Shown here: in pieces, positions 4,411-17,936 of the stretch
Position numbering within the stretch: the stretch's first letter is position 1
Layout: every line of letters starts with the position of its first letter
Source: a virus
IMG/VR virus record: IMGVR_UViG_3300013093_004123
Location: 1 to 26,778 of that record
Strand: one strand, 5' to 3'
Length of the DNA stretch: 26,778 nucleotides
Notes under the pieces: generated by a model
What the model was told of the DNA's origin: nothing
Databases searched by the model: none
The model's input: only the letters and a program-made list of their open reading frames with translations
Position numbers and translations under genes: made by a program

Positions 4411-4654
4411 CAGTATATTTCATCCCTTCTAGCTCGCACGGTGTTCCATAAGAAATTATAAGGTCCCTGACTTGTAGCAAATACTCCATAATTGCCATTC
4501 TATCAGATTCGCTATACTCCATGATATTACTTTCATATACAGTAAGTGCTAGGTAATTTGGTCTTGCCCTTACATCCAGTATTAGATTTTTAACTGGAGG
4601 CTTGATTTTCCTAACACTCTTAGCCATATCAACGGTGTACTGTATTTTTGCCAT
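4382..4654 (-). CDS. Small hypothetical protein
   Basis: A 90-aa basic/mixed protein with a beta-strand start (IQYTVDM), a strand LILDVRARPNYLALTVYE and a long helix (ESDRMAIMEYLLQVRDLIISYG). I do not recognise it. Its ATG lies inside the end of the WhiB gene, with AAAGAG about 5 nt upstream, and its 3' end overlaps the following gene by 29 nt. Overlaps on both sides support it as a real gene in the run. Confidence 0.65.
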   Translation of the reverse strand: MAKIQYTVDMAKSVRKIKPPVKNLILDVRARPNYLALTVYESNIMEYSESDRMAIMEYLLQVRDLIISYGTPCELEGMKYTDEQSRARRK

Positions 4655-4967
4655 GAAGTCTCTTTAGCTGTTTCCATATTTCAGGAGTTTTATGTGAGTT
4701 ATGTTGTTTATCTGGTCTACCAAGATCCATATAAACACCTCCCCATACTCCCTTTTCTTTATTCTTTACGCCTTCTTCATGACAAATTTTAATTACAGGA
4801 CAATTCAAGCAAATTTGATCAACTTGTTGTGCTGCAACTTTATCCGTCTCATATAGGTCGTAGAACCAATCATACTTAGAGCTAACAGTCATGCCATTAC
4901 ATGCTGCAAGATGATACCAATCGGCGTCTTCTTCATCAATACCAAGAAAATTAAATAAACTTGGCAT
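4629..4967 (-). CDS. whiB: WhiB-family [4Fe-4S] transcriptional regulator
   Basis: The 112-aa protein has the four WhiB cysteines, C23, C53, C56 and C62 (AACNG; ICLNCPVIKIC), and the G-V-W-G-G turn at 73-77. WhiB proteins bind a 4Fe-4S cluster, contact region 4 of the host principal sigma factor and are confined to actinobacteria and their phages. This is the best host marker in the window. A start at ATG 4967 is preferred over GTG 4976. The basic tail (KQLKRLHGK) after the G-V-W-G-G turn is the usual DNA-contact region. Phage WhiBs such as that of mycophage TM4 repress host whiB genes; a similar role here is inferred. Confidence 0.88.
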   Translation of the reverse strand: MPSLFNFLGIDEEDADWYHLAACNGMTVSSKYDWFYDLYETDKVAAQQVDQICLNCPVIKICHEEGVKNKEKGVWGGVYMDLGRPDKQHNSHKTPEIWKQLKRLHGKNTVHR

Positions 4968-5181
4968 ATTTATCACTTATATCCCATGTACCATCGGACT
5001 TTAAATGATAACGATTAACAAAGCCCCACTTATTGTTTTTAAACATGCCATTTTTTTCCATAAAAGCATTGTTGCTTGGTGTCCATCGAACAATTGTATA
5101 ATTGTCCCAGAAGAACCCATTTGATTTGTTGTTTTCAACAAATTTGTGTGCTGCTTCATAGTCTAGATTAATCTTAGCCAT
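4951..5181 (-). CDS. Small hypothetical protein
   Basis: A 76-aa protein rich in Asn, Lys and aromatic residues (FFWDNYTIVRW; NNKWGFVNRYHL). No family recognised. The ATG follows the GroES stop directly, with GGAAAAG upstream, and its end overlaps the WhiB start by 17 nt. Position between GroES and WhiB in a coupled run supports it as real. Confidence 0.65.
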   Translation of the reverse strand: MAKINLDYEAAHKFVENNKSNGFFWDNYTIVRWTPSNNAFMEKNGMFKNNKWGFVNRYHLKSDGTWDISDKYAKFI

Positions 5182-11666: not shown

Positions 11667-12359
11667 CTAATTATACATCTTTTTGTTCCAAAACTGGTTT
11701 TTATAAGACCTATTCATTTTGGACAAAAGGTTAAAAGAATTTTGTGCTAGATACTTTTCATCTGGTTCTACTATTTCATGCTGCCAAGATTCTCTTTTAA
11801 TTGGTATAATTTGTGCTACTGGAGTTCCTTTTTCTATAATACCCTCAAAATCTCCAACAAAAAACATTGAAACAGTCAATGCTCCATGAAGCTTGTCAGA
11901 GTCAACAAAACCAGTGACAGTTGTAAATGGAAGCTCAAATCTATTTATGGGGTTAGTAATTAAAATGCTGTATCCATCTGGGACAATAGTTGCTGGATAA
12001 GTAACCATTCTCCATATTGTTGGATCATGATGTGGTGGAACTGGAATTCCCATAGCTCTTTCATGATTCTCTAGGTCGAATAAAGGCATGTCTGGTTGCC
12101 ATTGAACTTTTAAATTGCCATTGATTCTTGTCACAGCAATATCACAAGGAAGTGTGACAAGATAACCAGCAGTCATAGCATCAAAAAATGGTAAACATTG
12201 CTTTACTGTACTACCATTTCTACCAAATATTTTTTGTTGTGTGTCTCTATATGCAGGAATATCTTTATACCATTGTGGCAAACCACTTATTGCTGGTATA
12301 GGGGGTTCATGAAGATCATACGTCTGGCGATCTTTTGCCATAAACTTAATTTTTTTCAC
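11667..12359 (-). CDS. Conserved phage/bacterial hypothetical protein (DUF6065-like)
   Basis: A 230-aa protein with IPAISGLPQWYKDIPAY, then TVKQCLPFFDAMTAGYLVTLPCDIAV and GTPVAQIIPIKRESWQHEI near the end. The P-x-W-Y-K-D, C-x-P-F-x-D-A-M-T-x-G-Y and G-T-P-V-x-Q-I-I-P features recall a family of phage and bacterial proteins I associate with DUF6065; the call is from memory and the function is unknown. The start is GTG (TAGTG overlap zone with the previous stop); an in-frame ATG lies six codons in. It precedes the HNH gene with a 3-nt gap. Confidence 0.5.
   Translation of the reverse strand: MKKIKFMAKDRQTYDLHEPPIPAISGLPQWYKDIPAYRDTQQKIFGRNGSTVKQCLPFFDAMTAGYLVTLPCDIAVTRINGNLKVQWQPDMPLFDLENHERAMGIPVPPHHDPTIWRMVTYPATIVPDGYSILITNPINRFELPFTTVTGFVDSDKLHGALTVSMFFVGDFEGIIEKGTPVAQIIPIKRESWQHEIVEPDEKYLAQNSFNLLSKMNRSYKNQFWNKKMYN
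11670..11675 (-). promoter_or_regulatory. Leaderless -10 box TATAAT 6 nt before ATG 11663
   Basis: TATAAT, then TAGTCT, then ATG. The box lies inside the end of the 11667-12359 gene. No ribosome site is present, so the transcript should start at or next to the start codon. Confidence 0.6.
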
Positions 12360-15290: not shown

Positions 15291-15414
15291 GGCTGTGGGC
15301 AAATATTCCAGCACCGAATGACGCTGCCCTAAGAGTCTCCCGCTGAACTCTACTCACACGGGTTACTTGGTTATTCGTAACTATATCCATACCTAAGGTG
15401 TGTTGCCCACAACC
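15291..15414 (-). ncRNA. Candidate structured RNA, four helices closed by a 12-bp stem
   Basis: Read as minus-strand RNA, GGTTGTGGGCAA (15403-15414) pairs with TTGCCCACAGCC (15291-15302): 12 bp with one G-U. Inside lie four helices: CACAC/GTGTG (15398-15402 with 15355-15359) enclosing GTTAC/GTAAC (15377-15381 with 15362-15366), AGAGTT/GACTCT (15346-15351 with 15332-15337) and CAGCGTC-ATTC-GGTGCTG (15309-15326, two G-U). The 5' arm starts at the base after the carbamoyltransferase stop; the 3' arm ends about 20 nt before the next start. It is more GC-rich than its flanks. No U-tract follows, so it is not a simple terminator. An overlapping 38-codon ORF (15274-15390, MDIVTNNQVTRVS...) has no proper ribosome site. 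Confidence 0.5.
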
Positions 15415-16842
15415 TTATACAATTATATCAGAGTTATACATGTTATTCCACTCTGATATATCATTCCAATCATTAAGCAAAGGTTGCCCCTTAATATTTA
15501 GACTGGTATTTAAAAGCACTGGGCATCCCGTAATCTCATTCCATCTTCTAAGCACCTCGTACAATTCGGGGTGCTGTTCTTTATTAACTGTTTGAACCCT
15601 GGACGTTCCATCAACATGCACAACTGACGGTATAAGCTCTGGTTTTAAACACTTAAAGGTATATTGCATATATGGACTGGTGGCATTTTTAGGCATATCA
15701 AACCATTCATGAGCATATTCTTCCATGATAACTGGAGCAAATGGTCTAAACAACTCTCTTTGTTTAATTAAATTAACTTTATCTTTTATTTCTGGATATC
15801 TTGGATCAGCAAGAATACTTCTATTGCCCAATGCCCTAGGGCCAAATTCGGCTCTTCCCGCTGCAACTGGTGCAACTTTTTCAGTAATTAGCTTATTAAT
15901 TATTTTATAAATTGGATATTCATTTCCCAAATCATATCCAAGGTACGGTCCACTCCATTCAATATGCTTTCCTCGCAAAGCTAATGCTGAACCTAAACTT
16001 GAACCAGCATCTCCTGGGTTTGGCATAATCCAAATATCTTCAAAAACTTCCCAAAGCCTTGTATTTGCAGAAGAATTTAATGCACATCCACCCATAAATA
16101 CAAGCTTACTCTTTTTGGTGATAGATCTGACATGCCACATAAACTCAATTAATCTAATCTCATAAACTTTTTGAACTGCTGCTGCAATGTCAAATTTATC
16201 TTGTTCATTTAATATTTGATGAGGCCAATTGTTTATACCTTTATGAAAATTATATTTTTGCTTATTAAAGTGTGGGAAATATCTATTTACATCAAGAAAG
16301 TATCTACCTGGGTCACCATACCCAGCCATTCCCATCATAATATATTCTTCTTGATTAGGCATCAATCCGATCAATTGTGTAAAGGCTGAATAAAATAGTC
16401 CAAAGCTAAATGGATAATTCTTTTTATACTTAAGCTTTATACTTTCACCAACGCCAGTCCATACTGTTGAAGTATTAAATTCCCCAATAGCGTCTAGCAC
16501 CACAATTACAGCATCATCAAATGAGCTTGTATAGTACCCAGCTGCTGCATGAGAATAGTGATGTTTAAACTCTTTTGCCTTTATGCCTTTGTATACAGGT
16601 TTCCAGTCTGCTGCTCCGCCACGGAGCTTGATTCTTAATCTTTTTAAGCGGGATTTTTCATAATAAGCAATATCATCAGGAAAACCATAAGATAGTAAAT
16701 CTAAATATATGGCATTATTGTTATACCAATCATTCTTCTTCTTACTATATCTTTCGGCATGTCCTGCAAACAATATGCTTTTATCATCAATTAATGCCAT
16801 AGCAGCATCGTGTGATGTTTCATTAAATCCGAGTATATTCAT
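15415..16842 (-). CDS. NodU/CmcH/TobZ-type carbamoyltransferase
   Basis: A 475-aa protein, start ILGFNETSHDAAMALI. The Kae1-like domain shows KEFKHHYSHAAAGYYTS and VVLDAIGEF; the C-terminal domain shows GRAEFGPRALGNRSILADPR, KQRELFRPFAPVIMEE, VVHVDGTSRVQTV and GCPVLLNTSLNIKGQP, all family signatures. The enzymes make carbamoyl-adenylate from carbamoyl phosphate and ATP and transfer the carbamoyl group to a hydroxyl (sugars in NodU, noviose in NovN, an aminoglycoside in TobZ; phage forms can act on 5-hydroxymethylcytosine). It is shorter than the usual 550-600 aa. ATG has AAGGA 6 nt upstream and begins 12 nt after tRNA-Ile. Confidence 0.92.
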   Translation of the reverse strand: MNILGFNETSHDAAMALIDDKSILFAGHAERYSKKKNDWYNNNAIYLDLLSYGFPDDIAYYEKSRLKRLRIKLRGGAADWKPVYKGIKAKEFKHHYSHAAAGYYTSSFDDAVIVVLDAIGEFNTSTVWTGVGESIKLKYKKNYPFSFGLFYSAFTQLIGLMPNQEEYIMMGMAGYGDPGRYFLDVNRYFPHFNKQKYNFHKGINNWPHQILNEQDKFDIAAAVQKVYEIRLIEFMWHVRSITKKSKLVFMGGCALNSSANTRLWEVFEDIWIMPNPGDAGSSLGSALALRGKHIEWSGPYLGYDLGNEYPIYKIINKLITEKVAPVAAGRAEFGPRALGNRSILADPRYPEIKDKVNLIKQRELFRPFAPVIMEEYAHEWFDMPKNATSPYMQYTFKCLKPELIPSVVHVDGTSRVQTVNKEQHPELYEVLRRWNEITGCPVLLNTSLNIKGQPLLNDWNDISEWNNMYNSDIIV

Positions 16843-17764: not shown

Positions 17765-17770
17765 ATTATA
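17765..17770 (-). promoter_or_regulatory. Leaderless -10 box TATAAT (6 nt before ATG 17758)
   Basis: TATAAT, ATGAAT, ATG. TTAACA lies 15 nt upstream, a shorter spacer than optimal. It separates the tRNA/structured region from the 17758 gene as an independent transcript. Confidence 0.55.
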
Positions 17771-17936
17771 CTCTTTCTGTTAGTTTGTTAATAATATATC
17801 GGATCAGTTTATCTTTCACCACACTGTAAGGTCTAGTAACCGAGTACTCCGATGATACCGTCTAAGCCGTGCTAGCGTCCACTTAGATACTTGCGTAAAC
17901 TTCCAACCGTCGAGAAATAATACAAGTGTTGCCACG
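17771..17936 (-). other. Gene-less stretch with inverted repeats downstream of tRNA-Trp
   Basis: No ORF of useful size. On the minus strand ATCGGA (17848-17853) pairs with TCCGAT (17798-17803), extendable by TAT/ATA with one bulge, and encloses GGTT-ACTA-GACC and CAGT...ACTG hairpins; TCTAAG/CTTAGA (17882-17887 with 17861-17866) forms a separate stem. The segment is more GC-rich than neighbouring intergenic DNA and would be co-transcribed with the tRNAs. It lacks a T-loop sequence, so it is not a normal tRNA. It may be a small structured RNA or a decayed tRNA. Confidence 0.4.

Follow-up and report, generated by a model that had tools for sequence, protein, structure and literature searches.

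The window, by which we mean the whole 26,778-nucleotide stretch analysed here (IMG/VR record IMGVR_UViG_3300013093_004123), carries a carbamoyltransferase gene and an SGNH gene separated by 143 nt, between the carbamoyltransferase stop codon (15415–15417) and the TTG start of the SGNH gene (15271). A structured small RNA of 124 nt, on the minus strand and running from 15414 to 15291, fills nearly all of this gap. An earlier note on this sequence had described a structured RNA here, and its account of the locus held up well: the RNA starts on the base after the stop codon, it is richer in GC (50%) than the neighbouring genes (35% and 26%), and no terminator U-tract lies downstream. The closing stem P1, which had been given as 12 bp with one G-U, is exact on the minus strand, where the 5′ arm GGTTGTGGGCAA (15403–15414) pairs with the 3′ arm TTGCCCACAGCC (15291–15302). 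The virus itself appears to infect actinobacteria. Its terminase is 63–64% identical to those of Streptomyces phages such as Francob, Phredrick, Moab and Gilson, and a WhiB-like regulator (4629–4976, minus strand, with Pfam and PHROGs matches) marks it as an actinophage, as a WhiB-like gene does for most of the long contigs that carry the RNA. A search for relatives of the SGNH protein of the window found none.

The minus strand folds better than its dinucleotide-shuffled controls, with a minimum free energy of −44.1 kcal/mol and a z-score of −2.95, a value that only 2 of 200 shuffles equalled; the plus strand of 15291–15414 is weaker (−37.4 kcal/mol, z −2.77). The minimum free energy structure is the same as the centroid and keeps both P1 and the hairpin CAGCGTC-ATTC-GGTGCTG (15309–15326, minus strand). 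Thus, of the four further helices originally proposed inside P1, this hairpin stands, but the other inner helices are individually unsupported. Elsewhere in the window, a 171-nt non-coding stretch that follows a tRNA-Asn-Asp-Trp array (17765–17935, minus strand) folds no better than shuffles (z −0.09).

At the gathering threshold, Rfam matched five tRNAs in the whole window and nothing else, and a permissive scan of the RNA region returned irrelevant, chance-level matches far under threshold. The phage-associated wcaG and manA families, which had been suggested as candidates, do not match the window RNA; with these, GOLLD, ROOL, tmRNA and Y RNA all included, Rfam 15 found only tRNAs in the window and in 10 loci that bear relatives.

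Relatives, closing stem and genomic context

A direct BLAST search of the window RNA against phage isolates gave no match, and queries with the 33-nt core gave matches at chance level only. The first relatives came instead from the loci around relatives of the neighbouring carbamoyltransferase. One of these RNAs (L002) is 84% identical to that of the window, and those of L011/L012 and L013 have closing stems wholly different from the window's around a common inner core. Scanning with the core pattern CTTAGN{0,2}ATGN{0,6}TATAGTTAC then yielded many more relatives, about half of the matches being due to chance; a mis-set pattern, intended to omit the core element A described below, added only two new members. 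In all, 58 distinct relatives of 77–138 nt were collected.

The first point to note is the behaviour of P1. Across 38 distinct pairs of P1 arms, whose sequences are almost completely different, all 418 of 418 base pairs are canonical, whereas random reassignment of the arms among the members gives 62% (maximum 72%). Because a stem was required for collection, its presence among the members is partly a matter of selection; the first of them, though, were found through their gene neighbourhood. Collecting homologous regions, as the earlier note had proposed, therefore bore out the closing stem through compensatory changes; it did not bear out the helices inside P1, which is the sole helix supported when RNAalifold is applied to a mixed alignment of relatives. 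We regard it as virtually certain that the RNA at 15291–15414 is a member of a real structured RNA family.

The exact 19-mer core CTTAGGAYGNTATAGTTAC occurs in 72 viral contigs, where we estimate that about three would be expected, and the ATG form of this core has a single match in 257 Gb of bacterial and archaeal genomes. The family is restricted to phages, and its carriers include many actinobacterial viruses, cultured Streptomyces phages among them.

The placements of the RNA fall into two kinds. In 67 of 93 it begins 0–2 nt after the end of a tRNA (58 at exactly 2 nt), and in 65 of the 93 a tRNA begins close downstream, mostly within 11 nt. The remaining 26 have no upstream tRNA, and 18 of these carry a TATAAT-like −10 box 4–9 nt before the stem. 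Such a box is found in none of the 67 tRNA-preceded placements, with a background of 1.9%, and in three contigs (L225, L233 and L239) a consensus promoter, TTGACA-17-TATAAT, directly precedes P1. A promoter-like box or a tRNA junction is thus found at the RNA 5′ end in 85 of the 93 placements. As a result of this split, the family RNAs appear to be independently transcribed or processed, either starting from their own promoter at P1 or being cut from a tRNA transcript. In the window, a TATAAT with an extended −10 (TGATATAAT, TATAAT at 15422–15427, minus strand) lies 7 nt before the first RNA base and is a candidate promoter of its own. However, it falls in the last codons of the carbamoyltransferase gene, and since TATAATTGTATAG is also present in relatives of that gene that lack the RNA, the window box is only suggestive. 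The context of promoters and tRNA arrays, the compensatory changes in the stem and the phage-restricted distribution all back a phage small RNA, one of three possibilities raised at the outset.

Complementarity to 23S rRNA

The main feature of the core, its complementarity to 23S rRNA, was absent from the earlier note. Using as references the 23S rRNA of E. coli K-12 and actinobacterial rRNA loci verified against it, we found that element A, ACCTTAGGTATGGATATAGTTAC (15377–15399, minus strand), is antisense to E. coli positions 1910–1931, covering the loop of helix 69, the 3′ strand of that helix and the CCUAAGG linker that leads to helix 70. This element is identical to antisense Arthrobacter 23S at 21 of 23 nt, and it is the best antisense-23S match across the whole window on both strands. 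The window RNA has an antisense-23S score of 34, compared with 19.1 ± 2.2 for shuffles, and none of 1000 shuffles reached it.

Three further elements, all on the minus strand, have counterparts in the same part of the rRNA. Element C, GAGTTCAGCGGGAGACTC (15333–15350), is a weak counterpart of antisense 23S ∼1990–2010, and is stronger in L192, L116 and the Streptomyces phages than in the window. Element B, CATTCGGTGC, lies within the hairpin at 15309–15326 and corresponds to antisense ∼1964–1973, where relatives have CATTCGTGC. Element D, TGGAAT (15305–15310), was recognised by eye and from the L192 alignment as a possible counterpart of antisense ∼1938–1943 (AAGGAATTTCGC). In the window B, C and D are weak and only A is significant alone; they are likewise weak in other single members and eroded in most type-1 members. 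The order of the elements in these RNAs is P1, A (1910–1931), C (∼1990–2010), B (∼1963–1976), D (∼1935–1944) and P1′, which amounts to a circularly permuted antisense that has the closing stem at the point where the chain would otherwise run on and lacks the hairpin of helix 71.

As the family was collected with the core, and most relatives were found with a pattern that contains A, the way in which they were gathered accounts in part for their shared A, and an independent test was needed. We therefore took the interior 3′ of A from 17 non-redundant members and summed their window scores over both 23S strands, some 350 windows in all. The three best windows were antisense 1939, 1956 and 1922, so that by this measure parts of the RNA that had not been used in finding the family point to the adjacent stretch of 23S rRNA. 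When the post-A part was simply aligned locally to the entire 23S rRNA, no more than 4 of 50 members gave the site; this was not decisive, and the summed scores were used instead. By duplex energy, the site comes first in just 5 of the 17 members, yet it heads the ranking of the sum. In L192, a single member on its own, antisense 23S 1963–2013 is matched over 50 nt. None of the fetched viral loci holds a perfect 20-nt complement to 23S rRNA, and element A is interrupted mid-way in all collected members, mostly near 1919–1922, with an interruption that varies in length and position.

A second layout is seen in cultured Streptomyces phages. Downstream of the endolysin gene of Gilson there is a short antisense match, in an RNA candidate that we place at 11721–11875 of this genome (L243), between the LysM endolysin and the next gene. 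In all, 126 records of Streptomyces phages (Gilson and 125 others) share this intergenic region in conserved form, and it is covered by no feature wherever the record is annotated. Its alignment shows an extended −10 box, a body and a terminator-like hairpin, the body reading CAGCCTATGGAAATGAGTCCG...CATTCGTGC...CGCTA.CTTAGGATGG.TATA.TTACC. Here the elements are collinear (C, B, A) with the antisense of 23S 2010–1910, helix 70/71 being skipped. Antisense 1906–2010 ranks first among all 23S windows in 9 of 9 representatives, and its sum is still first when element A is removed. The Streptomyces phage RNAs score 32.5 against Streptomyces 23S rRNA and 26.4–31.1 against that of five other bacteria; a notable stretch is the phage GCCTATGG against CCATAGGC in Streptomyces 23S. 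In the contigs L090, L128 and L133 the elements B and A have a similar linear arrangement, with a hairpin after them. Elsewhere in the Gilson genome (NC_048742), the product of 68830–70446, annotated just as ‘RNA-binding protein’, is a TROVE (Ro60-like) protein.

Element A also exists in an AC form that suits 23S rRNA of the E. coli type; it was found in 16 contigs, a number near the chance estimate. These matches lie mostly between genes, behind capsid genes or before terminators, and the contigs are probable members of the family on this positional ground. In L207, L208, L209, L210, L211, L214, L218 and L222 the AC-form 19-nt core lies a few nucleotides past the stop codon of a capsid or head gene and before a terminator-like hairpin. 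In L217 and L213 it is enclosed in a long stem, immediately before a gene that looks structural, and is preceded by a GTGCA-like element. One AC-form phage is Bacillus-phage-like and another, L209, is a WhiB-carrying actinophage, whose AC form agrees with 23S rRNA of the E. coli type and not with the actinobacterial sequences sampled. A search with the collinear B-A pattern written for E. coli-type 23S gave no match.

By these tests the complementarity of the family to 23S rRNA is beyond chance, and in the stem-closed RNAs the conserved interior is, by sequence comparison, a rearranged antisense copy of 23S domain IV, from helix 69 to helix 71 and beyond (∼1910–2010). Very probably, then, 23S rRNA is the pairing partner of the RNA.

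Possible action on the ribosome

The predicted target takes in the loop of helix 69 (bridge B2a) and the linker to helix 70, along with the flanks of helix 71. Helices 69–71 form the main inter-subunit contact and touch tRNAs, the recycling factor and several antibiotics, and so an RNA that paired with them could govern how ribosomes are assembled or how their subunits join. The face formed by these helices is buried in 70S ribosomes. A toxin has been found to reach and cut helix 70 in free 50S subunits and not in 70S ribosomes (PMC5408214), and a PNA against helix 69 is described, in the citation of Kulik et al. (2017) given in PMC7038079, as inhibiting the growth of E. coli.

We lean towards a model in which a stable phage RNA pairs with 23S rRNA in free or maturing 50S subunits and blocks their maturation or joining. 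The RNA would be made from its own sigma-70-type promoter or cut from a tRNA transcript, would accumulate as a stable species and would base-pair with helices 69–71 of free or still-maturing 50S subunits. As a result of the interruption of element A in all collected members, no long perfect duplex would form; the complex would then be spared RNase III, which favours stoichiometric binding over degradation of the rRNA. The least certain step is that the pairing would hold helices 69–71 open, and bridge B2a and late 50S maturation would thereby be blocked. New host ribosomes would be halted, whilst existing 70S ribosomes would keep translating phage mRNA. Because the phage still needs ribosomes, a strong blocker would require timing or selectivity, and inhibition of 50S maturation or subunit joining, taken as a claim of its own, is put forward tentatively.

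The same pairing might serve the opposite purpose, with the RNA protecting or helping the host ribosome. It could shield the UUCCU of helix 70 from MazF-type toxins released by host defences, act as a splint for the repair of cut 23S rRNA, or be a chaperone of rRNA folding. Such a role would suit the usual location of the RNA among arrays of tRNAs, as these arrays are often seen as making up for tRNA damage. M. tuberculosis MazF-mt6 and MazF-mt3 cut UUCCU in helix/loop 70, MazF-mt6 in free 50S subunits only (PMC5408214). This cut site is flanked by the targets of elements A and B, and UUCC itself would be the partner of element D; however, this element is weak and the Streptomyces phage RNAs skip it, and a T4-type RNA ligase, Rnl1, occurs in none of the RNA-bearing contigs searched, many of them fragments. 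We consider protection unlikely, though it is the alternative that fares best.

It is less likely still that this is a structured phage RNA acting by its fold or through a protein partner, in which the 23S-like sequence is a relic of its origin. P1 is indeed the best-kept structural feature and most type-1 members show erosion of B, C and D, but the complementarity of element A is kept across phages and layouts, permuted in aquatic actinophages and collinear in Streptomyces phages, and the latter RNAs fit their hosts' 23S rRNA best. A relic would hardly persist in both layouts.

Helix 69 is a hot spot of modification, and the bipartite element A, with its conserved central interruption at ∼1919–1922, is laid out like an H/ACA or C/D guide, which raises the idea of a snoRNA-like guide by which 23S rRNA would be modified at helix 69 or close to it. 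Against this, no C/D or H/ACA box elements were seen, the permissive Rfam scan was only at chance level, and the interruption differs in length and position between members. We know of no guide machinery in bacteria, and give this idea little credence.

A Y RNA partner of a Ro60 (TROVE) protein would account for the long end-to-end stem, and the related Streptomyces phage Gilson does encode a TROVE protein, but Gilson alone has one; it was found in none of 34 viral contigs searched (several longer than 90 kb, many of them fragments), no Rfam Y RNA matched, and the idea is highly improbable. Equally improbable are the two other possibilities that had been raised, a cis-regulator of the SGNH cluster and a 38-codon coding leader: the window RNA does lie directly before the SGNH gene, but most relatives lie among tRNAs or before unrelated genes, and their lengths of 77–138 nt fall into all three classes modulo 3, with no frame constraint.

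Comparison with known systems

Taken together, we think it likely that these RNAs form a widespread class of phage antisense RNA, with at least two layouts, that pairs with helices 69–71 of host 23S rRNA and takes control of ribosomes. One layout is permuted and closed by a stem (aquatic actinophages) and the other is collinear, with promoter and terminator (cultured Streptomyces phages). Phage small RNAs are known to act on mRNAs, and we know of none that targets ribosomal RNA; a literature search, thin in subscription journals, found no such 23S-antisense phage RNA. If the assignment is correct, this would be the first case known to us in which a natural small RNA, whether bacterial or phage-encoded, targets 23S rRNA. 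It would suggest that phages use RNA to bind host ribosomes or their precursors directly, and would point to a site on the ribosome that nature may already exploit as an antisense target. The family also offers a testable function for an unassigned intergenic sequence in more than 100 cultured Streptomyces phages.

On its sequence features, the RNA would work like a trans-acting antisense sRNA with an rRNA target, and it belongs to no known family. The closest parallels in setting are the stable RNAs C and D of phage T4 (bands 1 and 2), which we take to belong to the T4 tRNA cluster. They too are small stable phage RNAs in a tRNA array, of unknown function, and to our knowledge no complementarity to 23S rRNA has been described for them. 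GOLLD, ROOL and other ornate phage RNAs are similarly structured, often near tRNAs, and come from lake or phage sequence, but RNAs of the GOLLD/ROOL type are several hundred nucleotides long and self-assembling, whereas the present family is of 77–138 nt and has no Rfam match. The wcaG and manA RNAs share with it a phage association, a structure and an aquatic origin; unlike it, they are cis-regulatory. The archaeal and eukaryotic C/D and H/ACA guides are also small RNAs that pair with rRNA in short blocks around an interruption, but the RNA described here comes from a bacterial phage, shows no box motifs and has no modification machinery known to us. In its target it most resembles the synthetic anti-helix-69 PNA (Kulik et al. 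2017, as cited in PMC7038079), which is likewise antisense to helix 69 and, in that account, inhibits growth. Whilst the PNA is a synthetic oligomer directed against the E. coli sequence, the present RNA is natural, phage-encoded and structured.
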